This document shows positions 25,330 through 40,886 of a stretch of 64,000 bases of DNA, in pieces. The position numbers and the translations under genes were made by a program. How positions within the stretch are numbered: the stretch's first letter is position 1; each line of letters begins with the position of its first letter. The notes beneath the pieces are model-generated. The model saw nothing but the letters and a program-made list of their open reading frames with translations. It made no database searches and had not been told where the DNA came from. Source of the stretch: Maricaulis sp. (GTDB lineage: Bacteria; Pseudomonadota; Alphaproteobacteria; Caulobacterales; Maricaulaceae); NCBI GenBank assembly GCA_017643585.1, contig JAEPND010000005.1, forward strand, positions 62,001-126,000, written 5' to 3'.

Positions 25330-25410
25330 CAACGCAGTCCTTTTGGTTCTGCTGCTCAATATGGCGCATGAACACAAACAAAGCGTTGAGAAATGGAGTT
25401 AATGCGGCAC

Positions 25411-26196
25411 TCAAGCCGCGATGCGCAGCGCCTCGATCGCACTCTCGATATCGGCTGCCTGCAAGGGAACCACGGGGTTTGCCTCGCCAGCATGCTCCAC
25501 CAGTCGCTGGAGGTCCGGGCGGCGCAGGCAAAGCGCCGCAAGTTCAGCGGCGGATACCGCTGCAGCGCCCTCGCCCAGTTCGTCGAAAATCGCCCGCGCG
25601 AACCGGATGCCATCCGCACTGGAAACCCGCCAGTCCAGCGCTTCGAGCGCTCCGCCGGGGCCCCGCAGATTGGCTTTATGCAAATAGGCATGCTGACGCA
25701 TCCACAGGGTTGGATCCGCGAGTTCCTCATCGGACGAGGCAACATCATGCGCCTTGTGCAGCAATACGGCCGGAATAACTTCGACCTCAAGACCGCGCGG
25801 ATAGCCGGTCGGCATCGCATTGGTTGCGAAATCCGCCCGGGAATCATGCAGGAGCTCAAGCACGCGGCCAGCAAGCTGGGCATCGACAAAAGCCGCCTCG
25901 GCACTGACCCGGACAACCGTGTCGACGTGATAATCCTTGGCCGCATGGGAAAGATTGGCCAGGGCATCACCTGCAGGGCCAACCGAAAGACAATGCCCGG
26001 CCCGCAGAACCTCCAGCGCCAGCGAGGTTTCCAATTCCGTTTCCGGTATGGAGCAAATCACGCTATCGACACCCGGGATGGATGCACAACGATCGAGAAC
26101 ACGATTCAGGACGGTACGCCCGCCCAGATCAGCCAACACCGGTGAGGTGTCAGTTTGAAAATCGGTCTGAGCCTGAACGATCACAGCTGTGGTCAT
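25411..26196 (-). CDS. SpsF-like cytidylyltransferase homologue, eroded active loop
   Basis: 261 residues. The fold and several motifs match SpsF/acylneuraminate cytidylyltransferase proteins: VDTVVRVSAEAAFVDAQL and TGYPRGLEVEVIPAVLL. The nucleotide-binding signature QARxxSxRLPGKxL is replaced by QAQTDFQTDTSPVLADLGG, which lacks the conserved Arg and Lys. A second, intact SpsF-like gene lies at 38267-38992. This copy may be inactive as a transferase, act as a regulatory subunit, or use another substrate. It is on the flaEY strand, directly upstream, and divergent from pseB. Confidence 0.75.
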   Translation of the reverse strand: MTTAVIVQAQTDFQTDTSPVLADLGGRTVLNRVLDRCASIPGVDSVICSIPETELETSLALEVLRAGHCLSVGPAGDALANLSHAAKDYHVDTVVRVSAEAAFVDAQLAGRVLELLHDSRADFATNAMPTGYPRGLEVEVIPAVLLHKAHDVASSDEELADPTLWMRQHAYLHKANLRGPGGALEALDWRVSSADGIRFARAIFDELGEGAAAVSAAELAALCLRRPDLQRLVEHAGEANPVVPLQAADIESAIEALRIAA

Positions 26197-26318: not shown

Positions 26319-27392
26319 ATGTCTGACATCACGCCCCCCATGGACGCCCTGAACTCGATGGCCTTTAACCGGACTTTCCGCGAACCGCGCATGGACCTGA
26401 ACGGCAAGGTGATCCTGGTCACCGGCGGCACCGGCTCTTTCGGCAAGCAACTCGCTGAAACCATTTGCCGGGAATACAAGCCCCGCAAGCTGATCATCTT
26501 CTCACGCGATGAGCTCAAACAGTCAGAAATGGCTCAGGAATTTTCACCCAGTGACTATCCGTTCCTGCGTTACTTCATTGGCGATGTGAGAGATGAAAGC
26601 CGCCTCGACATGGCCATGCGTGACGTCGATATCGTCATCCATGCAGCCGCGCTGAAACACGTGCCGATCGCCGAGTACAACCCGTTCGAATGCATCAAGA
26701 CCAATGTGATCGGGGCCGAGAATGTTGTTCGCGCTGCGATCCGGCGTGGGGTTCGTCATGTCTGTGGGCTGTCCACGGACAAGGCCGCGAGCCCAATCAA
26801 TCTCTATGGCGCATCCAAACTGGCAGCGGATAAGATATTCACTGCCGCTCAGCATATGGGCGGTGAAGGCGGACCGATTTTCTCTGTGGTTCGCTACGGC
26901 AATGTCGTGGGGTCGCGGGGCTCTGTCATTCCGCTGTTCCGCAAGCTGATCGATGAAGGCGCCGACCACCTGCCGATCACCGATGAGCGCATGACACGGT
27001 TCTGGATCACGCTCGAACAGGGGGTGAATTTCGTCCTATCCAGCCTGGCCATGGCTCGCGGAGGCGAGGTCTTCGTCCCGAAGATCCCGTCCATGTCCAT
27101 GGTAGAACTGGCCAAATCGATGGCGCCGGACCTGCCCATCAAGATCATCGGCATCCGCCCGGGTGAAAAGCTGCACGAGGTGATGATCCCCGAGGATGAC
27201 GCGCGCACCACAGTGGAACTGGAGGATCGCTATGCTATCCTGCCTGCCCATAATGCACGCATCATGCGACGCTATCTGGCAGAGGGCGGCAAGGAAGTGC
27301 CGGAATTCTTCTGTTACGCCTCGCACACCAATCCAGAGCATTTCAGCCAGGAGGAACTTCGCGATTACCTCAACGGGCGCAAGGCAGCCTAG
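26319..27392 (+). CDS. pseB: UDP-GlcNAc 4,6-dehydratase (PseB/FlmA)
   Basis: 357 residues. The Rossmann motif TGGTGSFGK is at about 35-43, and STDKAASPINLYGASKL carries the SDR lysine and tyrosine. AALKHVPIAEYNPFE is diagnostic of the PseB/FlaA1 group, which dehydrates and epimerises UDP-GlcNAc in the first step of pseudaminic acid synthesis. The start at 26319 adds about 24 residues before the usual N-terminus; ATG 26391 is an alternative. It converges on pseC with a four-base overlap, so the first two pathway genes are on opposite strands. Confidence 0.93.
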   Translation: MSDITPPMDALNSMAFNRTFREPRMDLNGKVILVTGGTGSFGKQLAETICREYKPRKLIIFSRDELKQSEMAQEFSPSDYPFLRYFIGDVRDESRLDMAMRDVDIVIHAAALKHVPIAEYNPFECIKTNVIGAENVVRAAIRRGVRHVCGLSTDKAASPINLYGASKLAADKIFTAAQHMGGEGGPIFSVVRYGNVVGSRGSVIPLFRKLIDEGADHLPITDERMTRFWITLEQGVNFVLSSLAMARGGEVFVPKIPSMSMVELAKSMAPDLPIKIIGIRPGEKLHEVMIPEDDARTTVELEDRYAILPAHNARIMRRYLAEGGKEVPEFFCYASHTNPEHFSQEELRDYLNGRKAA

Positions 27393-28555
27393 AGCCCCAG
27401 CACTTCGCTCAGCGCATTGACGACCCGATCGGGTGCGTCAGCGTCAAGCCCGGCGTAGAGCGGCAGGCTCAATGTGTGTGCATAATAGCGCTCCGCACCA
27501 TCCAGAGCCGTCTGGCCATAGCGTTGGCGATAGAAGGGTTGCTTGTAGAGCGGGATGTAGTGGACCTGAGTTCCGACACCGCGCTGGCGCAGCGCATTCA
27601 TCAGCTCGGCCCGCGTCACCCCCACCGCCTCAAAGTCAATTCTCACCGGGTAGAGATGCAGGCAGGCATCCGTGTCCGGCGTCCTCCGGATCGGCAGAAT
27701 ATGCGGCGCCAGCTCAGCGAGCGCCTCGTCATACCGTTGTGCCAGCGCCTGGCGCGCACGCTTGAACTGATCCAGCCGCTTGAGCTGGGACCGGGCCAAG
27801 GCCGCCTGGATATCGGTCAAACGATAGTTCCAGCCCAGGGACTGCATCTCGTACCACCAGGGCTCGTCGGCGCCCCGCTCCAGATGTTCTGGTGAACGCT
27901 CCATGCCATGGCTGCGCAGTCGGGCTATGCGCTGTGCCAGAACCGCATCACGCGTTGTCACCATTCCGCCCTCACCCGCGGCGATCGTCTTGACCGGGTG
28001 GAAAGAGAATGTCGCCGCATCCGAGTGATGACAGGCCCCGACCGGTAGGCCTGCGTGAACTGTCCCGAGTGCGTGACACGCATCCTCGACGACCCGCAAT
28101 TGCGCGGTTCGAGCGATGCTCGATATCGCAGCCATGTCCACAGCCTGCCCGGCAAGATGCACTGGCAAGACAGCGGCGGCGCGGTCGCCCGCGCGTCCCA
28201 GCGCCTCTTCCAGATGCGCTTGGGTCATCAAGCCGGTGTCGGCATCCACATCACAGAACACAACCTCGGCGCCGCAGAAAAGCGCGGCATTCGCTGTTGC
28301 GAGGAAGGTAATCGCCGGAACGATGCACACATCCCCCTCGCCGATACCCAGCCCGGCCAGTGCGAGATGCAAGGCCGTTGTACCGTTGGAACAGGCCAGG
28401 GCATGCGGCGCAGCAGTTGCGGACCGAAACGCTGTTTCGAAGTCGCTGACAGCCGGCCCCGTGGTCAGCCAGTCACTCTTCAGCACATCAACCACGGCCT
28501 CGATATCGTCCTCGGCGATGGATTGACGACCATAGGGAAGGAAGTTGTCGGACAT
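27389..28555 (-). CDS. pseC: PLP aminotransferase PseC/FlmB
   Basis: 388 residues of the DegT/DnrJ/EryC1 family. ACSNGTTALHLALAGLGIG binds the cofactor phosphate region, EDACHALG carries the PLP aspartate, and FSFHPVKTIAAGEGG carries the Schiff-base lysine. PseC aminates the 4-keto product of PseB. The beginning FLPYGRQSIAEDDIEAVVDVLKSDWLTTGP is a PseC-type start (partial pattern). Downstream lies a flagellin unit on the same strand upstream of it, separated by a hairpin. Confidence 0.92.
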   Translation of the reverse strand: MSDNFLPYGRQSIAEDDIEAVVDVLKSDWLTTGPAVSDFETAFRSATAAPHALACSNGTTALHLALAGLGIGEGDVCIVPAITFLATANAALFCGAEVVFCDVDADTGLMTQAHLEEALGRAGDRAAAVLPVHLAGQAVDMAAISSIARTAQLRVVEDACHALGTVHAGLPVGACHHSDAATFSFHPVKTIAAGEGGMVTTRDAVLAQRIARLRSHGMERSPEHLERGADEPWWYEMQSLGWNYRLTDIQAALARSQLKRLDQFKRARQALAQRYDEALAELAPHILPIRRTPDTDACLHLYPVRIDFEAVGVTRAELMNALRQRGVGTQVHYIPLYKQPFYRQRYGQTALDGAERYYAHTLSLPLYAGLDADAPDRVVNALSEVLGL

Positions 28556-28653: not shown

Positions 28654-29487
28654 TTAGCCGTTGAACAGGTTCAGAATGATCTGCGGCTGGCTGTTCGCAA
28701 TCGATAGCGCCTGTACGCCCAGTTGTTGCTTGACCTGCAAGGCCTGCAGCTTGGCGCTCTCAACGGCAAGATCCGCGTCAACGAGGTCGCCGATACCTTT
28801 GGTCAGGCTGTCCATAAGCTTGCCAACGAAACCAGAGTGAGCCTCTAGCTTCTTCACGTCAGAACCCAGGTTTGCGAGAGCCTGGTTAACGTTGTCGAGG
28901 CTGGTCTGGATCTGAGAAGCCACTGTGCTTGCGAGCGTTACCGTACCAAGAGATGCGGTGGTCGTCAGCGTAATGATCGCGCCGGAGAGGCTCATATCCT
29001 GCGATTTCAGCGTGACGGAGCGGGAGGCATCGGCATCGGCCAGGAACTCGACGCCGTTGGTTATCGCGCCATTGATCATATTAGCGCCGTCGAACTCGGC
29101 GTTCGCGATGATACCTTGCACCTGGTCAACAAGCGCCTTGAAATCACTGTCATAGGCTGCACGAGAGAAGGTATCGAGCGAGGGGTCCATCGCGGCGACG
29201 GCCTTTTCACGCATCTGGACGAGAAGGTCGGAGATCGCTTCGCCGGCAGCCAGCGCGACATCACCGATGGTGCTGGCGCGCTCTAGGCCAGTCTGCACCG
29301 CACCCAGCGCACTCACATCAGCGCGCATGCTCTGTGCAACGGCGTAAATCGCAGCGTTATCCTTGGCACCGGCAATCTTCAGGCCGGTATTGATACGGTT
29401 CTGGGTCTGATCCATCTCAACATTGGTCTTGTTGAGATTCTGCAGAGCGATCATGGCTCCGGTGTTGGTGTGGACACTCATCGTCAT
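28654..29487 (-). CDS. Flagellin, divergent copy
   Basis: 277 residues. The N-terminal D0/D1 helices (TNTGAMIALQNLNKTN, QNRINTGLKIAGAKDNAAIYAVAQ) and C-terminal D0 (LQALQVKQQLGVQALSIANSQPQIILNLF) are complete; the variable centre is very short. It is the most divergent of the three flagellins here (Met-Asp-Gln in place of the usual TQ linker, different C-terminal motif). A GGGAG RBS favours ATG 29487 over the ATG at 29481. It has its own sigma-54 promoter and ftr-like site. Confidence 0.95.
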   Translation of the reverse strand: MTMSVHTNTGAMIALQNLNKTNVEMDQTQNRINTGLKIAGAKDNAAIYAVAQSMRADVSALGAVQTGLERASTIGDVALAAGEAISDLLVQMREKAVAAMDPSLDTFSRAAYDSDFKALVDQVQGIIANAEFDGANMINGAITNGVEFLADADASRSVTLKSQDMSLSGAIITLTTTASLGTVTLASTVASQIQTSLDNVNQALANLGSDVKKLEAHSGFVGKLMDSLTKGIGDLVDADLAVESAKLQALQVKQQLGVQALSIANSQPQIILNLFNG

Positions 29488-29685: not shown

Positions 29686-30078
29686 TCAGACGCGCTGGTT
29701 GATCAAGCCTGCCGTGCTTGTACGCAGGTATTCCAGCAAGTCGGAATGTTTCTCGGGCGGCCATCGCCGGACAGTCTCCCCGGATTCATCGTCAATCATC
29801 AGATAGACGTATTCTCCGGACGTGTTGTCCTGCGTGATCTTCAAACGCGAGTTTGCAAAAGGGGTCTCAGAGAGTTCCTGGATTTTCTGCTCGACCACCT
29901 CATAGCGCTCGGACTGATCCATCTGCTCAGCGGGTGATTTGGATGCACCACTCCCGTCCTGCTCCTCGACAGGCTGGATGCGTGTGCTGTCCTGACGGTT
30001 ACGCTCGACAATCTTCTCTCGATTGTCCGTGGCCGAGACCGCCGTGACAGATGCTGGATTAAATCCTGTTTCTGCCAT
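29686..30078 (-). CDS. FlaG family protein
   Basis: 130 residues. The C-terminal half carries the FlaG pattern (SRLKITQDNTSGEYVYLMIDD, then SGETVRRWPPEKHSDLLEYLR). The first 60 residues are polar and probably disordered. FlaG proteins affect filament length in other bacteria; the biochemical role is unclear. It lies between two flagellin genes, all on the minus strand, with its own terminator. Confidence 0.85.
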   Translation of the reverse strand: MAETGFNPASVTAVSATDNREKIVERNRQDSTRIQPVEEQDGSGASKSPAEQMDQSERYEVVEQKIQELSETPFANSRLKITQDNTSGEYVYLMIDDESGETVRRWPPEKHSDLLEYLRTSTAGLINQRV

Positions 30079-30181: not shown

Positions 30182-31006
30182 TTAACGGAAGTAGCCCAGG
30201 ATGGTGGACGGAGCACTGTTCGCGATGGACAGAGCCTGTACACCAAGCTGCTGCTTGACCTGCAGAGACTGCAAGCGAGCGCTTTCCTTGGCCAGGTCCG
30301 CGTCGACCAGGTTGCCGATACCCTTTTCCAGGGAGTCAGACAGTTTGCCTACGAAGTCCTTGTGGATGCCCAGCGACTTGGAAGCCGTACCCAGGCGCGC
30401 CAGAGAAGCGTTCAGGTTGTTGATGGACGTAGAGATCGTACCCGCAATCGTGCTCGCTGCGCCAGCGGAATCCATGGAGGCCGTTGCAGAGAGCGTGACG
30501 ACACCACCACCGAGTGACAGGTTCTCGTCGACGATGGAAATCGTGGACGAACCCGAAGCATTAGCGAGTGCGGAAATCGAGGTCACGGAGTTGTTGATCA
30601 GGTTCGTACCGTTGAACGAAGCGTTCGAAACGATCTTACCGATCTGGTCACGCAGCGCTTTGAAGTCCTCGTTCAGCGCGGTGCGCGAAGCGGAGTCAAG
30701 CGAAGCGTCCGAAGCCGCCAAAGCCTTCTCTTTCATCTCAACGAGGAGATCGGAGACAGCTTCACCAGCAGCCAGCGCAACGTCTACGGTCGAAGCAGCC
30801 AGGTCCAGCGAGTTACCAACGGCTTCATAGCTTTTTACGTCGGAACGCATTTTCTGGGCGATCGCGTAAACACCACCATTGTCCTTGGCAGAAGCAACAG
30901 CCAAACCCGTGTTAATGCGGGACTGAACTTCGGTGATTTCACGGTTCGTAGCGTTGAGGTTCTGCAGCGCAACCATGGCGCCAGCATTGGTATTGATAGT
31001 AGCCAT
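30182..31006 (-). CDS. Flagellin
   Basis: 274 residues from ATG 31006, where the flagellin N-terminus ATINTNAGAMVALQNLNATN begins; the open frame before it overlaps the promoter. Both terminal D0/D1 regions are complete (RINTGLAVASAKDNGGVYAIAQ and LQVKQQLGVQALSIANSAPSTILGYFR, partial). The centre is short, as in Caulobacter flagellins of about 25-28 kDa. It is closely related to the gene at 31357-32181. Ser/Thr residues in the central part would be candidate glycosylation sites for the FlmG-like enzyme. Confidence 0.97.
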   Translation of the reverse strand: MATINTNAGAMVALQNLNATNREITEVQSRINTGLAVASAKDNGGVYAIAQKMRSDVKSYEAVGNSLDLAASTVDVALAAGEAVSDLLVEMKEKALAASDASLDSASRTALNEDFKALRDQIGKIVSNASFNGTNLINNSVTSISALANASGSSTISIVDENLSLGGGVVTLSATASMDSAGAASTIAGTISTSINNLNASLARLGTASKSLGIHKDFVGKLSDSLEKGIGNLVDADLAKESARLQSLQVKQQLGVQALSIANSAPSTILGYFR

Positions 31007-31076
31007 TTCTTGGCCCTTTCCTTTCTGGTTTCTCGGACGTTCTGTCCGCTGGATCTTCTGATCCGCCCTCCTACAC

Positions 31077-31092
31077 AGCAAAGGAAGTGCCA
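31077..31092 (-). promoter_or_regulatory. Sigma-54 promoter of second flagellin
   Basis: On the minus strand TGGCACTTCCTTTGCT matches TGGCACG-N4-TTGCW with one mismatch; the flagellin start is 70 bases downstream. Confidence 0.85.
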
Positions 31093-31356: not shown

Positions 31357-32181
31357 TTATCCGAAGAACGACATGATCGTCTGCGGCGCCTGGTTGGCGA
31401 TGGAGAGCGCCTGTACGCCCAGCTGCTGCTTGACCTGCAGCGACTGCAAACGTGCACTTTCCTTGGCCAGATCGGCGTCGACCAGGTTTCCGATGCCGGT
31501 CTCCAGGGAGTCGGTCAGTTGCTGAACAAAGCCTTTGTGGATCTCGAGAGACTTGGCGGCCGTGCCGAGGCGCGCCAGAGACTGGTTAAGATTGTTCAAG
31601 GACGTCGAGATCGTACCCGCAAGAGTGCCTGCTGCGCCGGCAGACGCGAAGGAAGCCGTTGCAGCCAGCGTCACAACACCACCACCGAGCGAGAGGTTCT
31701 CGTCAATGATAGAAATCGTGCTCGATCCGTCCTGGTTAGCCAGGGCGGAGATCGAGGTCACTGAGTTATTGATCAGGTTCGTGCCGTTGAACTCGGCCGT
31801 GGATACCATCTTGCCGATCTGGTCACGCAGTGCCTTGAAATCTTCGTTCAGGGCGGTGCGGGACTCAGCATCGAGAGAGACATCCGAAGCAGCGAGGGCC
31901 TTCTCCTTCATTTCGATGAGCAGATCCGAAATGCCCTCGCCTGCCGCGAGGGCGACATCGACAACAGAACGGGTCCGATCGAGGCTCTGCTGAACAACAC
32001 CATAACCCGCTACCTGAGCACGCATGCGCTGCGCGATGGCGAATGTACCGCCGTCGTCTTTCGCGCCCGCGACCTTCAGGCCGGTATTGATGCGGTTCTG
32101 AACTTCGTTCATCGACTGGTTCGTAGCGTTCAAGTTCTGCAGGGCCACCATGGCCCCAGCGTTGGTGTTCACAGAAAGCAT
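31357..32181 (-). CDS. Flagellin
   Basis: 274 residues, complete at both ends (LSVNTNAGAMVALQNLNATN at the start; LQVKQQLGVQALSIANQAPQTIMSFFG at the end, partial). Very similar to the 30182-31006 flagellin over the whole length, with identical stretches such as GTNLINNSVTSISALAN and LSLGGGVVTL, so the pair probably arose by tandem duplication. Own sigma-54 promoter and strong terminator. First flagellin after flaF on this strand. Confidence 0.97.
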   Translation of the reverse strand: MLSVNTNAGAMVALQNLNATNQSMNEVQNRINTGLKVAGAKDDGGTFAIAQRMRAQVAGYGVVQQSLDRTRSVVDVALAAGEGISDLLIEMKEKALAASDVSLDAESRTALNEDFKALRDQIGKMVSTAEFNGTNLINNSVTSISALANQDGSSTISIIDENLSLGGGVVTLAATASFASAGAAGTLAGTISTSLNNLNQSLARLGTAAKSLEIHKGFVQQLTDSLETGIGNLVDADLAKESARLQSLQVKQQLGVQALSIANQAPQTIMSFFG

Positions 32182-32450: not shown

Positions 32451-32819
32451 TTATGCGGCTGGTGCCTGGGCCTGGGGCGATAGCCCCTGCATAATCGTTC
32501 GATTGATATCGATCAGGGTTTCGAAATCATCATCTCCGCGCATAACGACGGAGGTGTGCTTGGAGACAAAAAGCGACAGCGAGATGATCGAGGCCCGCAA
32601 TTGCTCGGGCAATTGATTTTCCTCACTCGAGCAGTCCAGAGCGAAATTGCTCCACATGCGACGATTCCAGTCCAGCGCTTCGGCACGCTTGGTGATCTCA
32701 AGCTTGTCCGCCTGTGACGCCTCCATGAGCGCGCGCGTCACTTGCGCGAACAGGCGGTACTCCGTTGAACGCGGATCCTCGCTACGGGTCGCAGCTTGCT
32801 GATAGGCCTGGAAGGACAT
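32451..32819 (-). CDS. flaF: Flagellin synthesis regulator FlaF
   Basis: 122 residues. [30 protein letters not shown] at the start (partial) and [38 protein letters not shown] identify FlaF. In Caulobacter FlaF is required for flagellin secretion and acts with FlbT on flagellin translation. Its ATG shares one base with the flbT stop, so the two are translationally coupled. Confidence 0.95.
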
Positions 32820-33205
32820 TACTTCAGTCGCTCCTCTTCATAGACGATGAGCTTTTTGCACCGGATGAGAGCCTTGTAGTACTCACCCGCCATCACATCC
32901 CTGCTCACGGCAACGCATTCCGCCAACACTTCCGGTGACTGGATCACGCTCATGAACTCATTCATGCGCACGACAAATTGTTCGTAGATGGCATCGTTTT
33001 GCTTGTCAGACAGATACATCATCATGATCGGGAAATAGATGTGACGCGCCGGCGTCGTCACCTCTTCCTGTTGCATGATGTCTTTCTCACGCAGCACCGA
33101 AGCCTTGTTCTGCAGGACCAGCACTGATCGGCGATCGCCATTCTCGATCACCGCGCCGTTCAGAACGAACTTCTCGCCAGGTTTTAGCGAGATTTTGAGC
33201 GGCAT
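32819..33205 (-). CDS. flbT: Flagellin mRNA regulator FlbT
   Basis: 128 residues, with the family start [32 protein letters not shown] (partial) and [17 protein letters not shown]. FlbT binds the 5' region of flagellin mRNA and represses translation before hook completion in Caulobacter. First gene of flbT-flaF, divergent from the flmG-like gene. Confidence 0.96.
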
Positions 33206-33460: not shown

Positions 33461-35248
33461 ATGATGACCGACAGCGCGCTGTTAGAAGAATTCAACGCCG
33501 AGGCTGAAGCAGAAAAGAATGAGACCCGCGGGGCTGTGGGCGATTCCGGACACTTCAAGGCTGAAACCAAACTGGGCGTTATCCCCAAGGATCAGCGCGC
33601 GACCTATCGCAAGGTCGCTGCCCTGTGCAAACGCGCCATCAAGATATCTGATGAAGGCGACCATGTCGGCGCTGCGAAACACGCGCTCAAGGCGCTCGAT
33701 GCCGGGCCGGACACAGCTCTCGCCAACCATACGGTCGGCCTGCTCCTGTTCCGCCTGGGACGACTATCCCGCGCTCTTGAGTTTTATGAACGCGCCTGGA
33801 AACTCGATCCCGCCGACGATGAAATCTATCTCAACATGGGGATTGTGGCCTGGAAACTGGACATGCTCGAGGCCGCGGAAAAATTCTATCGCCTGTGCGT
33901 CCAGGTCAATCCCGACAGTATGAGCGGCATGATCAACCTGGCGAGTGTCCTGCGCGACCAGGCCAAGTTCGAGGATGCGATTGAATTGCTGCGAGAGCGC
34001 ATCTACCTGCACCCAGAAAATGCCGAGCTGTGGAATTCCCTGGGTACGGTTCTGTCGGATTCCGGCGACCCGGTCGGCGCGGTGCCCTTTTACACTGAAG
34101 CCTTACGGCTGAAGCCCAATTTCGCACGGGCACACAACAACCTCGCGAATGTCTACGAGCTGATCGGCGAACCCGAGAATGCCGTCACGCATTTCGAAGA
34201 AGCACTGAAGAATCCCCAGGACAAGATCGACCGGGCCACGATGCTGCACGGGCACTCACTGGCATTGCTCGCGTCGGGCCGCCTCGCTGAAGGCTGGAAG
34301 GCGCAACGCATTCGCCTCGACCCCGACAATACCCAGGCCACACTGTTTGTCATGAACTGTCCAATGTGGGAAGGCGATGACCTGGACGAGATCCGGGGCA
34401 AGTCTCTGGTCTGGATCGGCGAACAGGGGCTGGGCGATGAAGTCCTGTTTCTCAACCAGGCCAATGACCTGATCGACGCGGTCGGCCCGGATGGCGAATT
34501 GCGTATCGCCGTGGAGTATCGATTGGTGGATCTGGTCGCCCGCTCCTTCCCCAAGGCAAAGGTCTACAGCCACCGCTCCGCCAATGTGGAAGGCCGCGAT
34601 GTGCGCGTCCTGCCAAAGATCGACAAGGCCTCCGATTGCTGGACTCCGATGGCGACGCCTCTGCGCTCGCTTCGCAACAGTGTCGACAGCTTTCCCAAGG
34701 ATGCCGGTTTCCTGACCCCGGATCCGGACCGCCAGGAAGAGTTCCGGCAACAACTCGCCGCGTTCGGCCCGGGTCTCAAGGTCGGCATCCTCTGGAAATC
34801 GCTGAAAATGAATGCACGGCGCGCCCGGTTTTTCTCGGCATTCGACGCTTGGAAACCGGTCCTGGATGTAGAGGGCGTGGAGTTCGTCAACCTGCAGTAT
34901 GGCAAGGTCGAAGACGAGCTGAAGATCGCCCGCGAGCGTTTCGGGGTCACGGTTCACCAGCCTGAAGGCATCGACCTCAAGATGGATCTCGACGGGGTCG
35001 CCGCGCTGTCTTTTGCTTGTGATCTGGTCATCGGCCCTATGAATGCGACCACCAACCTGGCCGCCGCCAGTGGTGCAAATGTCTGGTTCATCCACGCGCG
35101 CTCCTCGACCTGGACCATGCTGGGCGCCGGGCGCTCACTTTGGTATCCGCAGACACGCTCCTTCTTTGGCGAAGGCTTCCAGGACTGGGAGAACACGATG
35201 GGGCGGGTCGCCACCGAGCTTGCAGCACACGTTAAGGCTACCGGTTAG
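33461..35248 (+). CDS. flmG: FlmG-like TPR flagellin glycosyltransferase
   Basis: 595 residues. About six TPR-like pairs span residues 50-285 (RALEFYERAWKLDPADD, AVPFYTEALRLKPN, AVTHFEEALKNPQD). A GT-B-like domain follows from about 310 (SLVWIGEQGLGDEVLF, then VIGPMNATTNLAAASGANVW). Length and architecture match Caulobacter FlmG, which binds flagellin through the TPR part and adds pseudaminic acid. It heads an operon with pseG, a sulfotransferase, an ATP-grasp ligase, spsF-like and neuB-like genes, next to flbT-flaF and the flagellins, which supports the same job here. Confidence 0.88.
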   Translation: MMTDSALLEEFNAEAEAEKNETRGAVGDSGHFKAETKLGVIPKDQRATYRKVAALCKRAIKISDEGDHVGAAKHALKALDAGPDTALANHTVGLLLFRLGRLSRALEFYERAWKLDPADDEIYLNMGIVAWKLDMLEAAEKFYRLCVQVNPDSMSGMINLASVLRDQAKFEDAIELLRERIYLHPENAELWNSLGTVLSDSGDPVGAVPFYTEALRLKPNFARAHNNLANVYELIGEPENAVTHFEEALKNPQDKIDRATMLHGHSLALLASGRLAEGWKAQRIRLDPDNTQATLFVMNCPMWEGDDLDEIRGKSLVWIGEQGLGDEVLFLNQANDLIDAVGPDGELRIAVEYRLVDLVARSFPKAKVYSHRSANVEGRDVRVLPKIDKASDCWTPMATPLRSLRNSVDSFPKDAGFLTPDPDRQEEFRQQLAAFGPGLKVGILWKSLKMNARRARFFSAFDAWKPVLDVEGVEFVNLQYGKVEDELKIARERFGVTVHQPEGIDLKMDLDGVAALSFACDLVIGPMNATTNLAAASGANVWFIHARSSTWTMLGAGRSLWYPQTRSFFGEGFQDWENTMGRVATELAAHVKATG

Positions 35249-35251
35249 GCC

Positions 35252-36223
35252 ATGTCTGTCATCCTGATACGGGCGGACGGCGGACCGACAATTGGTTTCG
35301 GCCATGTCACACGCTGCCGCGCGCTGGCGCGCACGCTGCACGAGCTTGGGCGCCAGGTGCTCTGGATCACCCGAACGCCAGACGTTCTACCCGCAGATGT
35401 GAAAGCATTGTGCGAGATTGTATCTGTGACGCAGACCGACGAGTTCGAGGCGCTCTCCACGCTGGCCCGTAGGCACGAAGCCCCGGTGCTGATCGGGGAC
35501 TGGAAGGACACAGACCCGATCCTGGTGCAAAGGCTGCGGGACACCGGCCTGCCAGTCGTACTGCTGGGCAACCAGACCGGCGCTGCGCGGGCCGATCTGA
35601 TCGTCAAACAACGCTTTGTTCCCCAACCCGAAACACGTGGAGTGCATTGTCTTGATGGTCCGGAACATCTGCTCTTGCCTGCTGCGTTTAGCGCCCTGAC
35701 TCCCCCCGTCGCCGTCACGCAAGCGCAATCCGTCTTCGTCTCCCTGGGCGGAAGCCAGAGCGAATTGATCGACCATTGCCTGGCGATCTGCGAAGAGCTT
35801 TGCCAACAACGTAACGTGAAAGTGGATATCCTGCGTCCGGACCACCAGGGCACCCCTCATCGCGCACAGGAGGTTGCAGAGCGAATGCGCGCGGCTGATT
35901 TTGCCGTCATGGCGGGCGGCACGAGCCTGCACGAGGCTGCAGCCTGCCGTTTGCCCGCGATATGCCTGCCGATTGTTCCGCGTCAGCTGGACCGGGCCCG
36001 CAGCTGGGAGGCCCTTGGATTTGGCGTCAGCCTTGTTCCGGACACGCCGCACTGGGAAAGCCAGTTCGCCACGGCTTTCAACCGGTTCCACACGGACGTT
36101 GAGATCCGCCAGGGCGCGATCGAAAAAATGGCAGCCAGCGTTGACGGGCTTGGCGCGCAGCGGGTCGCCCAATTCATCCACACGACCTGGCCCGGCGAAC
36201 CGTCGCCGCCAGAATCGTCCTAA
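35252..36223 (+). CDS. pseG: UDP-sugar hydrolase PseG (FlmD-like)
   Basis: 323 residues, three bases after flmG. The PseG signature IRADGGPTIGFGHVTRC holds the catalytic histidine at residue 18. VFVSLGGS (161-168) and AGGTSLHE (221-228) bind the nucleotide sugar, as in MurG-like GT-B folds. PseG removes UDP from UDP-2,4-diacetamido-2,4,6-trideoxy-L-altrose, giving the free sugar that the synthase condenses with pyruvate or phosphoenolpyruvate. Confidence 0.9.
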   Translation: MSVILIRADGGPTIGFGHVTRCRALARTLHELGRQVLWITRTPDVLPADVKALCEIVSVTQTDEFEALSTLARRHEAPVLIGDWKDTDPILVQRLRDTGLPVVLLGNQTGAARADLIVKQRFVPQPETRGVHCLDGPEHLLLPAAFSALTPPVAVTQAQSVFVSLGGSQSELIDHCLAICEELCQQRNVKVDILRPDHQGTPHRAQEVAERMRAADFAVMAGGTSLHEAAACRLPAICLPIVPRQLDRARSWEALGFGVSLVPDTPHWESQFATAFNRFHTDVEIRQGAIEKMAASVDGLGAQRVAQFIHTTWPGEPSPPESS

Positions 36224-36261
36224 TACGACTTGAAGCAGAAACCTGAAGCGAAGAGACGGAA

Positions 36262-37209
36262 TTGACCGAGTCCTCACCCACAGTCGGCGACATCTGGCCA
36301 AACTTTCTGGTCATCGGCGCACCAAAGGCGGGCACGACCTCGCTGTACCACTATCTCAGCCAGCACCCCGATGTTTTCCTGTCCCGGGTTCGCAAGGAAG
36401 GCCGTTTTTTTTCCGGAGTGGGACAAGGGCAGGTCTACTGGCCCGATTTTTACCACTTCGACACCGCGCCGGAGATCTCTGATTACCAGGCGCTGATGGC
36501 GGATTATTCTGGCCAGGCGCGGGTCGGGGACGTTTCGCCGGACTACTATGCCTATGCATCGATTGCAGCCCCACGGGCGCGCGAATTGTGTGGGCCTGAC
36601 ACCCGCATTATCGCCCTGTTGCGCAATCCCGTCGACCGGACCTATTCCCACTATCTGCAGAATGTCCGACGTGATGCAGAATTTCTCTCGTTTGAGAAAG
36701 CGCTGGAAGACCAGCCGCGCCGTATCGCGGAAAACTGGGGGTTCCAGTGGCTTTACGCGCACACTTCCACCTATCCCGAGCGCTTGAAGATCTGGCAGGC
36801 TCACTTCCCGAACATGCTGGTCCTTCTCCAGGATGACCTCGACGCAGACGGCCCGGGAACCGTCGCCCAGATTGTTGACTTCCTTGACCTGCCCCCACAC
36901 CCCATCACAGTCGAGGCGCGCTATAACACCGGTGGCATACCCGCGGCCAAGAAGATGATCATTGATGGCCATTTCGACGACCGTATCGGCGAGGATTTTG
37001 ATCGGCTGCATGCCGAGCTGATCGCCCCCGTTTCCGGCACCACCAGCGCCAAGACCGCTGACGGCGTTTACCCGCCACTCGACAACACGCCGGTCTCCAT
37101 TCCGCCAATGGCCAGCGACATGCGCGCCCGCCTGCAGACACAGTACGAGCCCTCGATCCGGGAGGTCGAGGTACTGCTCGGACGATCACTGGATGTCTGG
37201 CGCAAATGA
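36262..37209 (+). CDS. PAPS-dependent sulfotransferase
   Basis: 315 residues from a TTG start preceded by GAGACGG. The 5'-phosphosulfate loop GAPKAGTTSLYHYL is at 19-32 and the 3'-phosphate motif RNPVDRTYSHY at 121-131, both as in heparan/carbohydrate-type (Sulfotransfer_1) enzymes. It would move sulfate from PAPS to a hydroxyl or amine of a sugar or protein. It sits inside the flagellin glycosylation operon and overlaps the ATP-grasp gene by four bases, so the likely target is the flagellar sugar or its precursor. That target is inferred. Confidence 0.88.
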   Translation: MTESSPTVGDIWPNFLVIGAPKAGTTSLYHYLSQHPDVFLSRVRKEGRFFSGVGQGQVYWPDFYHFDTAPEISDYQALMADYSGQARVGDVSPDYYAYASIAAPRARELCGPDTRIIALLRNPVDRTYSHYLQNVRRDAEFLSFEKALEDQPRRIAENWGFQWLYAHTSTYPERLKIWQAHFPNMLVLLQDDLDADGPGTVAQIVDFLDLPPHPITVEARYNTGGIPAAKKMIIDGHFDDRIGEDFDRLHAELIAPVSGTTSAKTADGVYPPLDNTPVSIPPMASDMRARLQTQYEPSIREVEVLLGRSLDVWRK

Positions 37210-38270
37210 GTGCGCTTCATGACATCTCCAGCGGCGTGCTGGTCACGGGCGTCGGCGCCCCTCCGGGCCTGGGCACCCTGCGCTCACTGAGACAGGCCGA
37301 TCCAGAGCTGACGCTTGTTGCCGCCGACCTGAACGCGCTTGCGGGCGGGCTGTATGAACCCGGCTGTACCGGGATAACCCTGCCCTCCGCTGCAGATGCG
37401 GAGGCCTATCGGAGCGCTGCGCTGAAGGTGATGGCAGATCATGGCTGTGACACCATCATTCCGGGTTCGGAAGCTGAAGCCAAAGCCCTGGCGCCGGTCG
37501 TGGACGCCTGGGCAAAGGACGGTATTCGTGTGCCTGTGCCAGCTCCGGATGTGCTCGAATATGGTATCGACAAGGGCAAGCTCCTGTCCCGTGCCAAGGC
37601 CCGCGGACTGCCGATACCGGCGACACTACAGCCCAACAGCGTCGACGATCTGGATGCCTGGGATGGCGGCTATCCCTGCGTTGTCAAACCCCGCACATCA
37701 CGCGGTGCACGCGGTGTCAGCTATCCGGCCAATGCTATCGAGCTGGCCCAGATCTGGGCCGAAACCCACCGCGATCATGGCCCCTGTGTGGTCCAGCAAT
37801 ACATTCCGGGCGGTGCCGAGACCGTCTACACGATCGGCTCGCTGTGGCGCGAAGGCGAACTCATCGTCTCCACCCTGCACCGCAAGCTGCAGACCAATCC
37901 ACCGACCGGGGGCGTCGCGGTCGCCGGGGAAACCGTGCATGACCCGGTCCTAATGCAGGCCGGGCTTGATGTTCTGCAGGCCAGTGGCCCCTGGCACGGT
38001 CTTGCGGCAGTCGAGCTGAAACGGCCGGCTGCGGGCGAACCTGCCTATTTGCTGGAGATCAATCCGCGCATGTGGGGGTTTGGATATCTGATGACCCTGG
38101 CGGGACTCAATATCCCGGCCCTGCTCGTACGCATGCTGGCCAATGATCCAGATCTTGGTAACCATATCCCCGGTAGAATTCCTCCGTATAATGCGACTCG
38201 GATGACGCGGACCTGGATGGATGTCGAAATCCCTGTCCAAGGCAGCCAGAATGAAGAGGACACGGTGTGA
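37206..38270 (+). CDS. ATP-grasp ligase (CarB-like)
   Basis: 354 residues, ATG overlapping the sulfotransferase stop. An N-terminal Rossmann-like preATP-grasp domain (VLVTGVGAPPGLGTLRSL) is followed by the ATP-grasp core: YPCVVKPRTSRGARGV binds ATP, and ELKRP plus LLEINPRMWGFGY hold the metal ligands. The group resembles carbamoyl-phosphate synthase-type and amino-acid or peptide ligases often found in surface-sugar clusters. It may attach a carboxylate or amino acid to an amine of the sugar. The substrate is unknown. Confidence 0.85.
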   Translation: MSALHDISSGVLVTGVGAPPGLGTLRSLRQADPELTLVAADLNALAGGLYEPGCTGITLPSAADAEAYRSAALKVMADHGCDTIIPGSEAEAKALAPVVDAWAKDGIRVPVPAPDVLEYGIDKGKLLSRAKARGLPIPATLQPNSVDDLDAWDGGYPCVVKPRTSRGARGVSYPANAIELAQIWAETHRDHGPCVVQQYIPGGAETVYTIGSLWREGELIVSTLHRKLQTNPPTGGVAVAGETVHDPVLMQAGLDVLQASGPWHGLAAVELKRPAAGEPAYLLEINPRMWGFGYLMTLAGLNIPALLVRMLANDPDLGNHIPGRIPPYNATRMTRTWMDVEIPVQGSQNEEDTV

Positions 38271-38992
38271 AAAGAACCGTCGCGGTAATTCAGGCACGAA
38301 CAGGCTCGAATCGGCTTCCGAGGAAGATTCTCGAACCGCTTTTCGATGATGTTTCCCTGCTCGCTTACCAGTGTCGACACTTGCGCAATATTCCAGGCGT
38401 GGACGAGCTGGTGATCGCCACGACGACACACCCCAATGATGATACCGTCGAACAGCTGGGACAGGCCGAAGGCATTCGCGTCATTCGTGGTTCAGAGCAC
38501 GACGTTCTTGATCGTTTCCTCGTCGTCGCCGAACGAACCCTGGCCACGACCCTTGTGCGCATTACATCGGACAGTCCCTTCCGTGACCCCATGATTATTG
38601 CGCGATGCGTGTCGGACCATCACGACAATCTTTCCGAATACACGCGACCCGTTGACAAGCATCTGCCGCGGGGCTTGCGCGCGGAAGTCGTGGAAACGCG
38701 TGTGCTTCAACATCTTGCCGCTGATCCGGAAGTCACCGCCCGCCACCGCGAGCACGTCACCCTGTTCATACGTGAACACTATGAAGCCTTCCGGACACAC
38801 ATGGTGCGGTTCGCCGACACGCTTCACTATCCCGATTATGATTTTTCGGTCGACACACGTGAGGACCTGGACTTCGTCCGCTCCGTTTACGCACAGATGA
38901 GCGAACGCGACTGGCCCATCGATGCAGAACACATCTGCAAGCTGATCGGCGAACAGGTGGCCGAACAAAACCGCTTCGAGGACATTGCCTGA
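38267..38992 (+). CDS. SpsF-like sugar cytidylyltransferase
   Basis: 241 residues, GTG start overlapping the previous stop (GTGA). The CTP-binding signature IQARTGSNRLPRKIL (residues 8-22) is intact, followed by VIRGSEHDVLDRF and VRITSDSPFRDP. SpsF-family enzymes activate acidic sugars such as nonulosonates with CMP. In this operon it would fill the PseF/FlmC step. It is the intact relative of the eroded copy at 25411-26196. Confidence 0.85.
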   Translation: MKRTVAVIQARTGSNRLPRKILEPLFDDVSLLAYQCRHLRNIPGVDELVIATTTHPNDDTVEQLGQAEGIRVIRGSEHDVLDRFLVVAERTLATTLVRITSDSPFRDPMIIARCVSDHHDNLSEYTRPVDKHLPRGLRAEVVETRVLQHLAADPEVTARHREHVTLFIREHYEAFRTHMVRFADTLHYPDYDFSVDTREDLDFVRSVYAQMSERDWPIDAEHICKLIGEQVAEQNRFEDIA

Positions 38993-39921
38993 TGAACGCA
39001 GAGCGCGTGACCCTGATCGCGGAGATCGGGTCGAACTATGATGGCGATCTCGATCTCGCCAAACGCTATATCGAAGCCAGTGCGAAAGCAGGCGCGGATA
39101 TTGCCAAATTCCAGAGCCTGAGCCGGGACGGCCTGATCGCACGACGCATCAAGGACCCCGGCAGCGGCGACATTGTCGACAATCCGAAATACGCCGCGTT
39201 CGGCAATCAGGGCTTGCCGGATGACTGGCACTACACTCTCAAGGCCTGTGCTGACGATAACGGCATCGAATTTATGTCCTCGCCCTTCTCTCTGGAAGCG
39301 GTGGACCTGCTCGAGGATGTCGGCGTCAGCCGTTACAAGATCGCATCCGGGGATATGACTTTCCGCGCGATGCAGGAAAAGATCGCGGCAACCGGCAAGG
39401 CCGTGATCCAGTCCACCGGCGCCAGCTATCTCGACGAAGTCGAGGCGGCGGCCAGCTTCCTCCGCGCCAAGGGCTGTAACGAGCTTACCCTGTTGCATTG
39501 TACAGCAAGTTATCCACCTGCCTGGGAGGATATGAACCTCAACGCGTTGACGTCCCTGCGGGCGGCGTTTCCGGACACGCCGCTGGGCCTCTCAGACCAC
39601 TCGCCAGGCAGCTTGGCTCCGATCGCTTCGATCGCGCTGGGTGCCAGAGTGATCGAGAAACATGTGACCTTTGACCGCTCCAATCCCGGGCCGGATCACC
39701 CCTTCGCGATGGAGATGGAAGAATTCGCGAGAATGGCGCACGACATCACCGATCTGTGCGTCGCGCTGGGCACGTCCGAGAAGCGGCCGGCAGCGAGCGA
39801 AATCAATCGCCGTCGCAATTTGCGCCGCGGCCTCTATGACGCTGAACACGGCGGCCCCACAACGGGAAATGACGGTGTGTGGCTGCGCCCGCAGCACGCC
39901 GCCGATGATCGGGCGGAATAG
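38992..39921 (+). CDS. pseI: Nonulosonate synthase (NeuB/PseI-like), short C-terminus
   Basis: 309 residues, ATG sharing one base with the previous stop (TGATG). The TIM-barrel motifs are present: LIAEIGSNYDGDLDLAKRYI, AKFQS, FMSSPFSLEAVDLLEDVGVSRYKIASGD (partial) and LSDHSPGSLAP, then VIEKHVTFDRSNPGPDHPFAME (partial). These enzymes condense a hexosamine with PEP to make sialic, legionaminic or pseudaminic acids. The usual C-terminal SAF (antifreeze-like) domain of about 60 residues is reduced to about 35, ending in GVWLRPQ and a short tail. Last gene of the operon, followed by a terminator. Confidence 0.88.
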   Translation: MNAERVTLIAEIGSNYDGDLDLAKRYIEASAKAGADIAKFQSLSRDGLIARRIKDPGSGDIVDNPKYAAFGNQGLPDDWHYTLKACADDNGIEFMSSPFSLEAVDLLEDVGVSRYKIASGDMTFRAMQEKIAATGKAVIQSTGASYLDEVEAAASFLRAKGCNELTLLHCTASYPPAWEDMNLNALTSLRAAFPDTPLGLSDHSPGSLAPIASIALGARVIEKHVTFDRSNPGPDHPFAMEMEEFARMAHDITDLCVALGTSEKRPAASEINRRRNLRRGLYDAEHGGPTTGNDGVWLRPQHAADDRAE

Positions 39922-39932
39922 CACACAGACAC

Positions 39933-39961
39933 AAAAAAGGCGTCCTGAGAGGCGCCTTTTT
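39933..39961. terminator. Bidirectional terminator after neuB-like gene
   Basis: AAAAAAGGCG / CGCCTTTTT stem with a ten-base loop, T run on both strands. It separates the operon from the convergent cupin gene. Confidence 0.88.
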
Positions 39962-39981
39962 CGTCGTGGGCCCAAAGCCCC

Positions 39982-40695
39982 TTATTTCGTTCGGATCGCG
40001 TCGATCTTGGATGCAGAGACACCGTCAACAATCGTGCGGTTGATCATCGGGTGATCTTCGTCCTGGGGGCCAAAATCACTATCGGGGTGATAGGCAACGA
40101 CCCGCATCTCGCTGTCATAGGTCCGGAATTTGTGGTGCCCCTCATAGGGGATCCGGAACATCACTCCCGGCTCCAGCGGGATGATGCCTTCCGGCGTGAC
40201 GCACTCGCCCTTGCCGGAAAAGACCACGCCAATCCGATCGGAAGGATGCGTGTGCGACGTCTGGTCAATGCCAGGCGGGAAGTAGAGCAGGTTGAGACAG
40301 GGGTCGCCCATCTTGATGGGTGAGATCAACAGGCTGTCGGTACAGCCATCGATATATTTCAGCCGCCCCTTGTCCTCGACCGGACCACCAATCGAGAAGA
40401 AGGCCTGGTGCTTGGCGCGCGCCATGACGATGCCCCGGCCGCCGGAAATACTGACGGCATTGTTGGCCGAGAAATACATGCCTGATTTGAGGGTGAAACT
40501 GCCCGCATCCGTCTTCACGACGGCATCGCCATCCTGGACAAAACCGAAATAGGCCGTATCCGTCGCGTCAAGATCAAGATCCTGATTGTCCCAAGCATGC
40601 AGAGTTGTTGGGAAATTCGGATCGCAATCGGCAACCTTGCCGGTCATCCATTCGAATGCGTAGAAGTTCTGCGTGTGGATCATTCCATCAGCCAT
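39982..40695 (-). CDS. Bicupin protein next to nonulosonate operon
   Basis: 237 residues from ATG 40695, with AGAGGTGG just upstream; a GTG at 40704 is less likely. Two cupin halves are visible. The first (about 50-110) lacks a clear metal triad. The second (about 140-215) has HTHPSDRIGVVFSGKGE and later YEGHHKF, giving three or four histidines for a metal. Possible roles are sugar isomerase, dioxygenase or small-molecule binding. Convergent with the neuB-like gene; a link to the sugar pathway is inferred from position only. Confidence 0.75.
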   Translation of the reverse strand: MADGMIHTQNFYAFEWMTGKVADCDPNFPTTLHAWDNQDLDLDATDTAYFGFVQDGDAVVKTDAGSFTLKSGMYFSANNAVSISGGRGIVMARAKHQAFFSIGGPVEDKGRLKYIDGCTDSLLISPIKMGDPCLNLLYFPPGIDQTSHTHPSDRIGVVFSGKGECVTPEGIIPLEPGVMFRIPYEGHHKFRTYDSEMRVVAYHPDSDFGPQDEDHPMINRTIVDGVSASKIDAIRTK

Positions 40696-40886
40696 CGGGG
40701 CCACCTCTAATCTATCACGATGAGTATCCCAGAGATTCGCCTTTACAGTCCCTTAATTTCGCAAGCAGGGAAAGGTGATTGGGGCAATGTGCCGCATTCA
40801 GGGTCTCGAACCGCCCCTGGGCACGCTGCAGCTTGACGCCTACGTCACACCTACCCAAGCCGTTTGCAACGCGCTAGGTCTTGGCC

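Follow-up and report, generated by a model that had tools for sequence, protein, structure and literature searches.

What sugar would be built for flagellin by a glycosylation locus that encodes, beside nonulosonate enzymes, a sulfotransferase and an ATP-grasp ligase? The question is raised by an operon in a 64,000-nucleotide stretch of Maricaulis sp., a marine stalked bacterium of the Maricaulaceae (Alphaproteobacteria; contig JAEPND010000005.1, positions 62,001 to 126,000), the whole of which is referred to here as the window. An earlier note had described six tightly packed genes there, and all six plus-strand open reading frames (ORFs) were confirmed at 33461-39921, with gaps of 3 and 38 bases followed by overlaps of 4, 4 and 1. 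They encode an FlmG-like protein, a PseG-like hydrolase of uridine diphosphate (UDP)-sugars, a sulfotransferase of the type that uses 3'-phosphoadenosine 5'-phosphosulfate (PAPS), an ATP-grasp ligase resembling carbamoyl-phosphate synthase (CPS), an SpsF-like cytidylyltransferase and a short NeuB. The families that the note had given to these genes are borne out by Pfam and NCBIfam matches, with the PseG-like and NeuB-like proteins falling below the cut-offs of the specific models (Table 1).

We consider it probable, though by no wide measure, that the operon directs a variant nonulosonate pathway for flagellin, in which the ligase replaces or follows PseH, a sulfotransferase acts on the sugar, FlmG carries out the transfer and the sugar genes form an exchangeable cassette.

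Distribution and order of the cassette

The sulfotransferase and the ATP-grasp ligase travel together. In a sample of 137 genomes of the family, including 19 of Maricaulis, and with a carrier defined as a genome holding both proteins at 50% identity or more, the two are present in an identical set of 16: 15 Maricaulis genomes and one Oceanicaulis (G012). Their genes are adjacent in every carrier, and the next matches at E<=1e-10 reach at most 34% identity for the sulfotransferase and 32% for the ligase. Of the other 15 carrier loci, 14 repeat the arrangement flmG, pseG-like, sulfotransferase, ATP-grasp, spsF, short neuB, and one of these 14 (G064) has extra pseudaminate genes between flmG and the pseG-like gene; at the fifteenth (G068, genome 65% complete) the contig ends after the first four genes, through ATP-grasp. 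The gene grouping is not chance. The earlier note had named the operon its best candidate for an undescribed system; no such flagellar sugar was found in the literature searched, and the system is not peculiar to one strain, being shared by 15 of 19 Maricaulis genomes and an Oceanicaulis.

The closest named relative of the locus is that of the sister strain, Maricaulis sp. HCUG1439-2 (97% identity in the ATP-grasp protein), and other named carriers are M. maris DSM 4734, M. salignorans, M. parjimensis and M. alexandrii. Across 398 genomes of the order, ATP-grasp matches at E<=1e-30 were found in 14, all of them Maricaulis or G012, and no short-NeuB orthologue, as judged by score, was found in the other 384 alphaproteobacterial genomes sampled (best other match 259 bits, compared with 583). 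Of 74 loci collected for their ATP-grasp relatives, 13 belong to the Maricaulis/Oceanicaulis cassette and 61, most of them haloarchaeal, show 22-35% identity. Neither a short NeuB nor the sulfotransferase lies near the ATP-grasp gene in any of these 61 (phmmer, ORFs of at least 100 residues), and they were dropped as a lead to function. A NeuB relative is nearby in three of them, from Terriglobia (L214), Daejeonella (L219) and a gammaproteobacterium (L226). In L214 and L226 the distant ligases (29-32% identity; two ORFs in L226) are near ordinary PseI-like genes, so that decoration of nonulosonates by such ligases may be more widespread.

A short NeuB without a SAF domain

The synthase encoded at the end of the operon differs from full-length NeuBs in its C-terminal arm. 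The SAF domain (PF08666) was detected at E<=0.1 in none of 15 short NeuBs and in all of 10 full-length relatives (41-66 bits). The chain ends soon after a W-L-R-P sequence aligned with the R-P of the SAF domain, the arm being reduced to a stub that keeps the arginine. Residues E11, K39, K116, H203, E222, H224, D235 and R299 are invariant in all 15 proteins. The alignment to meningococcal NeuB (NmNeuB) runs up to D235, and the match of R299 to Arg314 comes from a separate alignment; we take the aligned barrel residues to have catalytic roles and Arg314 to be the arginine that reaches the active site of the neighbouring subunit. In the NeuB tree, where long branches make the outer joins uncertain, the short enzymes form a clade of their own (support 100/100, stem of 1.9 changes per column) apart from the full-length ones. 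A short NeuB is present in 15 of the 16 carriers, the locus of the sixteenth (G068) being cut by the contig end, and in 11 of those 15 genomes (one of them, G079, 69% complete) no other NeuB match reaches E<=1e-10.

The protein scores 231.5 bits against the PseI model TIGR03586 (cut-off 340.25) and 259.8 bits against the NeuB/NnaB model TIGR03569 (cut-off 399.65). With both cut-offs missed and the SAF domain absent, "pseudaminate" is not established as its product; of the earlier label, a NeuB/PseI-like enzyme, membership of the NeuB superfamily (PF03102) is what holds. The sequence of the short NeuB makes an active synthase with altered specificity the most likely reading. A solved relative of similar size, Protein Data Bank (PDB) entry 6ncs, presumably from Leptospira, is a NeuB-family synthetase of 290 residues with the same barrel and, again, a chain too short for a full SAF domain. 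It ends at residue 289-290, aligned to residue 279 of the query, and has no counterpart of the R-P stub seen here.

The sulfotransferase, the ligase and the remaining sugar enzymes

By sequence and by structure model (predicted local distance difference test score, pLDDT, 81.4), the nearest solved relatives of the sulfotransferase are 3rnl and the human heparan sulfate 3-O- and N-sulfotransferases. Two motifs that we assume to bind PAPS, K22-G24-T25-T26 (K-x-G-T-T) and R121-P123-S129 (R-x-P-V-x-R-x-x-S-H-Y), are invariant in all 16 carriers, as is Glu46, which aligns with a glutamate of the 3-O-sulfotransferase that is presumably catalytic there. Fold and relatives fit a predicted carbohydrate sulfotransferase.

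For the ATP-grasp protein, the best NCBIfam model is the CPS-like NF009402, at 127.8 bits against a cut-off of 218. Its structure model (pLDDT 86.6) matches the folds of 2pn1, L-amino acid ligases, CPS and PurT, and the metal-binding E-x-N motif, E284-I-N286, is invariant in the 16 carriers. Folds and relatives alike fit a carboxylate-amine ligase, which makes an amide linkage a fair prediction. The earlier note had foreseen a sulfated nonulosonate with an amide- or ester-linked group; nothing found points to an ester.

The acetyltransferase step of the usual pathway was called by the TIGR03585 cut-off for PseH, which is exceeded in 12 of the 137 family genomes. Two carriers (G064 and G070) are among them, in both cases with PseH beside a second, full-length PseI; no PseH above the cut-off was found in the other 14, this genome included. 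Because PseH is missing and the ATP-grasp ligase is the one extra enzyme of acyl type, replacement of PseH is proposed.

The PseG-like protein is fast-evolving: with the sister strain left aside, it scores 85-345 bits at the 14 remaining carrier loci. It has no PDB relative at E<=0.01. Solved relatives of the SpsF-like protein are 6oew (E 9.2e-20) and the KdsB-type 1gq9 (E 0.0005). A second cytidylyltransferase-like protein, placed like FlmC, gave no NCBIfam match; it has relatives of 35-59% identity in three Maricaulis non-carriers (G073-G075), which in G074 lie beside pseB and beside flmG and PseH. Nine of the 15 Maricaulis carriers (two of the nine, G068 and G079, being 65-69% complete) have no match to it at 35% identity or above, which would leave the cassette SpsF as their only cytidylyltransferase of the two kinds covered by the search and so as their candidate CMP (cytidine monophosphate)-sugar enzyme. 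Together with PseB and PseC, the cassette would complete a route, which is a fit and not proof.

Probable exchange at the slot between flmG and moxR

Four Maricaulis non-carriers (G073-G076, 89-94% complete) keep flmG, the flagellins and moxR in the same order. All four have a full-length NeuB, which lies between flmG and moxR in G074, G075 and G076; in G073 it is on the far side of pseC, and the flmG-moxR slot holds only an spsF-like gene. Four carriers (G064, G067, G070 and G072) have a second NeuB besides the short one. Seven full-length NeuBs were run on NCBIfam, those of the non-carriers G073, G074 and G076 among them and that of G075 left out. The PseI cut-off is passed by six, namely those of G073, G074 and G076 and the extra ones of G064, G067 and G070 (scores 475-499); the extra one of G072 (locus L135) passes the NnaB model instead, with 451.7 bits.

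In G064 and G070 the second NeuB is a PseI beside PseH. These genomes (loci L122 and L127/L136) hold an ordinary pseudaminate set with PseH plus the sulfotransferase cassette, the two sets standing in tandem in G064 and perhaps likewise in G070, across a contig break. Judged by their genes, the two strains may make two flagellar sugars.

The FlmG tree tracks genera and species, and the non-carriers fall inside the carriers: G076 is beside G062, G066 and G068, G074 and G075 stand apart, and G073 is beside G067, a join made less sure by the long branches of both. The FlmG of the Oceanicaulis carrier G012 groups with Oceanicaulis. From this placement of non-carriers among carriers, and of the Oceanicaulis protein with its own genus, we infer that over the 29 rows compared the cassette has probably been exchanged with ordinary pseudaminate genes, or lost, more than once while flmG stayed put.

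The stretch between flmG and moxR is a hotspot of changing sugar genes, with a GNAT gene in L132, a hexapeptide gene in L134, a methyltransferase gene in L139 and amidotransferase and HisF-like genes in L145. On the pseB/pseC side, a WbqC-like gene (L131) and a formyltransferase gene (L147) are found beside NeuB. A scan of 20 ORFs from ordinary cassettes, a NeuB among them, turned up enzymes of the GNAT, WbqC, formyltransferase and hexapeptide types in some loci. The idea of one acyl enzyme per cassette was not upheld, as some ordinary loci gave methyltransferases or nothing.

The operon and its flanking genes

The features discussed here are collected in Table 1.

Table 1. Features of the flagellin glycosylation locus, in positions of the window
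Feature	Position	Strand	Basis
FlmG-like tetratricopeptide repeat (TPR) protein, presumed flagellin O-glycosyltransferase	33461..35248	+	TPR families; adjoins flagellins, flaF, flbT
PseG-like UDP-sugar hydrolase	35252..36223	+	TIGR03590, 80.5 bits, below cut-off 153.55
PAPS-type carbohydrate sulfotransferase (predicted)	36262..37209, TTG start	+	PF13469 50.0 and PF00685 39.5, both above cut-off
ATP-grasp ligase, carbamoyl-phosphate-synthase-like	37206..38270	+	PF02655 28.3 bits, above cut-off 23.2
SpsF-like cytidylyltransferase, presumed CMP-sugar synthetase	38267..38992	+	CTP_transf_3 (PF02348) 88.7, above cut-off
Short NeuB, putative phosphoenolpyruvate (PEP)-condensing sugar-acid synthase without SAF domain	38992..39921	+	PF03102 only, 251.1 bits, cut-off 22.1
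Terminator-like inverted repeat with flanking A/T runs, between convergent genes	39933..39963		read from sequence
Bicupin protein, possible seventh cassette member	39982..40704	-	adjoins short neuB
Second cytidylyltransferase-like protein, placed like FlmC	25411..26196	-	relatives in non-carriers G073-G075
PseB	26319..27392	+	TIGR03589 491.6 bits, above cut-off 407.75
PseC	27389..28555	-	TIGR03588 487.5 bits, above cut-off 423.5
Three flagellin genes, presumed acceptors	28654-29487, 30182-31081, 31357-32181	-	named by reading and synteny
FlaG-like gene	29686-30078	-	named by reading and synteny
flaF	32451-32819	-	PF07309, above cut-off
flbT	32819-33205	-	PF07378, above cut-off
CtrA-like box TTAG-N7-TTAA	33395..33409	+	begins 66 bases before flmG start

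The FlmG-like protein owes its name to its TPR repeats and its position at the side of the flagellins, no Pfam glycosyltransferase domain being found in it; relatives at E<=1e-20 occur in 73 of the 137 family genomes. The box before its gene is the single exact match to TTAG-N7-TTAA in the window, where 0.09 were expected and 9 of 100 shuffles had one. With the CtrA consensus taken to be TTAA-N7-TTAA, 21 of 22 other loci have a similar site, with no more than one mismatch, ahead of flmG, against 0.8 expected over the set, and the remaining locus (G067) has none. In Caulobacter, flmG is under CtrA control, as part of the published account describes (PMC7591256).

Ratios of nonsynonymous to synonymous change against the sister strain, obtained by a simple Nei-Gojobori count, are 0.055 for flmG, 0.314 for pseG, 0.152 for the sulfotransferase, 0.161 for ATP-grasp, 0.319 for spsF and 0.230 for short neuB, the values for spsF and neuB resting on few changes.

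The six genes that the earlier note had grouped may have a seventh companion, which it left out although it is linked in most loci. This bicupin gene, convergent to short neuB, adjoins it in the window. Fourteen other cassette loci have sequence beyond neuB, and 12 of them, Oceanicaulis included, show the same neighbour at 70-99% identity. No bicupin adjoins in L125 (G079) and L127 (G070), where the contigs end 763 and 775 bases past neuB; since it starts within about 600 bases past neuB elsewhere, its placement in these two may differ. A copy in G070 lies near the end of another contig, next to the second, PseI-type set. None of the 11 complete flmG-moxR slots without the cassette holds one, the slots themselves being what was searched. 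The protein matches no NCBIfam family, has a Cupin_2 domain only and finds weak PDB relatives; one plasmid relative, at 42% identity, has no nonulosonate genes of the query beside it. A sugar-modifying or metal-binding role would be a guess.

The window holds no tRNA gene and no Rfam match that reaches the gathering score. Adjoining the second cytidylyltransferase gene on the minus strand, 22570-25377 encodes a protein of 935 residues that by eye is flagellar-like with an inserted run of repeats; relatives of 911-918 residues lie near pseB in three other genomes (L127, L137 and L146).

Proposed pathway and alternatives

The pathway that we favour would run as follows. PseB and PseC, whose family membership is shown by their scores, would make UDP-4-amino-4,6-dideoxy-AltNAc. 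The PseG-like hydrolase would release the sugar from UDP, and the short NeuB, with its active-site residues kept, would condense the sugar with PEP, giving a nine-carbon acid. To an amino group of the sugar the ATP-grasp ligase would attach a carboxylic acid, for which a small amino acid is the likeliest candidate. The sulfotransferase would put sulfate from PAPS on the sugar, the SpsF-like enzyme would make the CMP-sugar and, by extension from Caulobacter, FlmG would transfer it to flagellin. The product, its acyl group, the site of sulfation and the flagellin target are all predicted from this scheme. That the ATP-grasp step takes the place of PseH acetylation, as distinct from adding to it, we put at slightly under an even chance. 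It is doubtful whether everything holds at once, which would define a new nonulosonate class, formed by a synthase that lacks SAF, given an N-linked amino acid by ATP-grasp and not by PseH, sulfated before FlmG acts and perhaps involving the bicupin.

A number of observations weigh against this reading. The first group concerns sulfate activation. A match to adenosine 5'-phosphosulfate (APS) kinase is present in 13 of the 16 carriers, one of them (G077) partial and below cut-off; none was found in this assembly, nor in G068 or G079. This assembly also has one PF01507 match only, without the CysD-type gene of its sister, a gene named by its position beside APS kinase there, and the whole sulfate-activation block of the sister is missing although the assembly is 99.95% complete. 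Of 12 kilobases around that block, only the part beyond the block finds a match here, at the start of contig C4. Compared with L149, the neighbours of the block begin right at this contig edge, where there is a small inverted stretch. Either an assembly gap or a true loss would account for the missing genes, and their absence makes sulfation by this strain less likely unless such a gap hides them; if they have been lost, the sulfotransferase of this strain could be idle. The second group concerns specificity. The short NeuB and the PseG-like protein miss the PseI, NnaB and PseG cut-offs and their substrate may therefore differ, and ATP-grasp ligases act on many substrates, biotin carboxylases and glycinamide ribonucleotide (GAR) synthetases tying with the best VIA-align row. 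G012 holds the cassette with the FlmG of its own genus, so that FlmG is not visibly tailored to the cassette. Finally, this genome has four weak matches to the PseH model, the best with E 2.6e-6, and the step could be served by a weak FlmH-like acetyltransferase encoded elsewhere; non-carriers G073 and G076 likewise have no PseH above the cut-off.

These last points bear on the alternative that survives best, although we regard it as rather unlikely: an acetyltransferase encoded elsewhere takes over from PseH, leaving later modifications to the ATP-grasp ligase and the sulfotransferase, for example amidation of the carboxyl group or addition of an amino acid to the finished sugar. Weak PseH-model matches in 130 of the 137 genomes would allow for it, and so would the redundancy of the third step in Caulobacter, where, in the part of the account used here, loss of flmH together with two paralogues did not reproduce the phenotype of the other mutants (PMC7591256). 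Set against these are the two carriers with PseH above the cut-off, in which PseH accompanies a second, full-length PseI, and the six operon proteins, among which Pfam and NCBIfam find no acyltransferase family.

It is improbable that the product of the short NeuB is instead an acid derived from PEP, which the ATP-grasp ligase would then attach as an acyl arm; the sfm system of Shewanella may work in this way. A short NeuB and an ATP-grasp protein occur together in both systems (PMC3765264), and the short NeuB is a separate clade here; that SfmA may make an acyl arm is our suggestion and not that of the published work, so far as its cited parts go. The short NeuB is the sole NeuB match in 11 of 15 genomes, which would leave the core sugar without a synthase, the arginine aligned with the SAF-domain R-P is kept in all 15, and counterparts of sfmC and sfmD, a ketoreductase or a methyltransferase, are missing from the six operon proteins.

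Very improbable is the view that the cassette serves another surface polymer (capsule, lipopolysaccharide or holdfast) and lies beside the flagellin genes by chance: although a pseudaminate-pathway gene of Sinorhizobium fredii is needed for its K-antigen capsule, as PMC7591256 mentions in part of its text, the cassette follows flmG directly and in the same direction with 3 bases between the first two genes, and 14 of the 15 other carrier loci repeat that order, interrupted only by pseudaminate genes in G064. In relatives it is pseudaminate genes that surround flmG, and Pfam assigns none of the six proteins to a polymerase, flippase or further glycosyltransferase family.

If the combined reading that we called doubtful above is correct, its product would be the first sulfated nonulosonate on a bacterial flagellin within the literature searched, made by a route independent of PseH. 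Nonulosonates on flagellin are needed for filament assembly in Caulobacter, and a cassette by which the sugar changes under a constant FlmG would show how far FlmG tolerates other donors, a question raised in the discussion of that work (PMC7591256, cited in part). The cassette also allows tests of whether ATP-grasp can replace PseH and of why NeuB enzymes keep a SAF domain, and it bears on whether sulfated flagellar sugars suit sea water or protect against flagellum-binding phages. As it is carried by cultured type strains, it is open to experiment at once.

Comparison with known systems

With the PseB-C-H-G-I-F pathway, the locus shares PseB and PseC above their cut-offs, together with PseG-like, NeuB-like and cytidylyltransferase proteins; it differs in the absence of PseH above cut-off from 14 of 16 carriers, in the short NeuB and in the added sulfotransferase and ATP-grasp ligase. 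No sulfotransferase in a flagellin nonulosonate locus, and no sulfated bacterial flagellin sugar or sulfated pseudaminic or legionaminic acid, was found in the open-licence literature, as judged partly by titles and opening lines of abstracts.

ATP-grasp genes in flagellin-glycan loci are already known, from Shewanella (sfmE) and Clostridium difficile (CDR20291_0245). For Shewanella oneidensis, the cited parts of PMC3765264 describe an operon, sfmABCDE, that is required for normal flagellin modification and encodes a 290-residue NeuB homologue (sfmA) and an ATP-grasp protein (sfmE), in a strain with PseB and PseC and no clear PseH, PseG, PseI or PseF. The operon is needed for a 274-Da mono-acetylated nonulosonate bearing a group of 236-264 Da. 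By the same account, it differs from the Maricaulis operon in that SfmE is of the ATP-grasp_4 type (412 residues), a thiamine pyrophosphate enzyme, a reductase and a methyltransferase are present with no sulfotransferase, and MAF proteins, not FlmG, are suspected of the transfer. The type B flagellar glycan of C. difficile offers a CPS-like ATP-grasp protein needed for an acidic, sulfonated peptidyl-amido sugar, as parts of PMC5207246 and PMC5207245 report. There, however, a Fuc3N-Rha-Rha-GlcNAc chain is capped with taurine, alanine and glycine, and the genes studied in those parts include neither a glycosulfotransferase nor NeuB (PMC5207246, PMC5207245).

A close parallel is Caulobacter crescentus, where, from the parts of PMC7591256 used here, flmG acts on the flagellins with PseB, PseC, a PseG-like protein, NeuB and a cytidylyltransferase, and where CtrA control of flmG finds its counterpart in the CtrA-like box before flmG in Maricaulis. 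The main text of that paper names neither a sulfotransferase nor an ATP-grasp gene; NeuB acts there as a pseudaminate synthase, its deletion being complemented by C. jejuni NeuB3, and FlmH is present (PMC7591256). What is known, then, is nonulosonate glycosylation of flagellin of the FlmG type, and what we regard as new in Maricaulis is an altered, self-contained sugar cassette within it.

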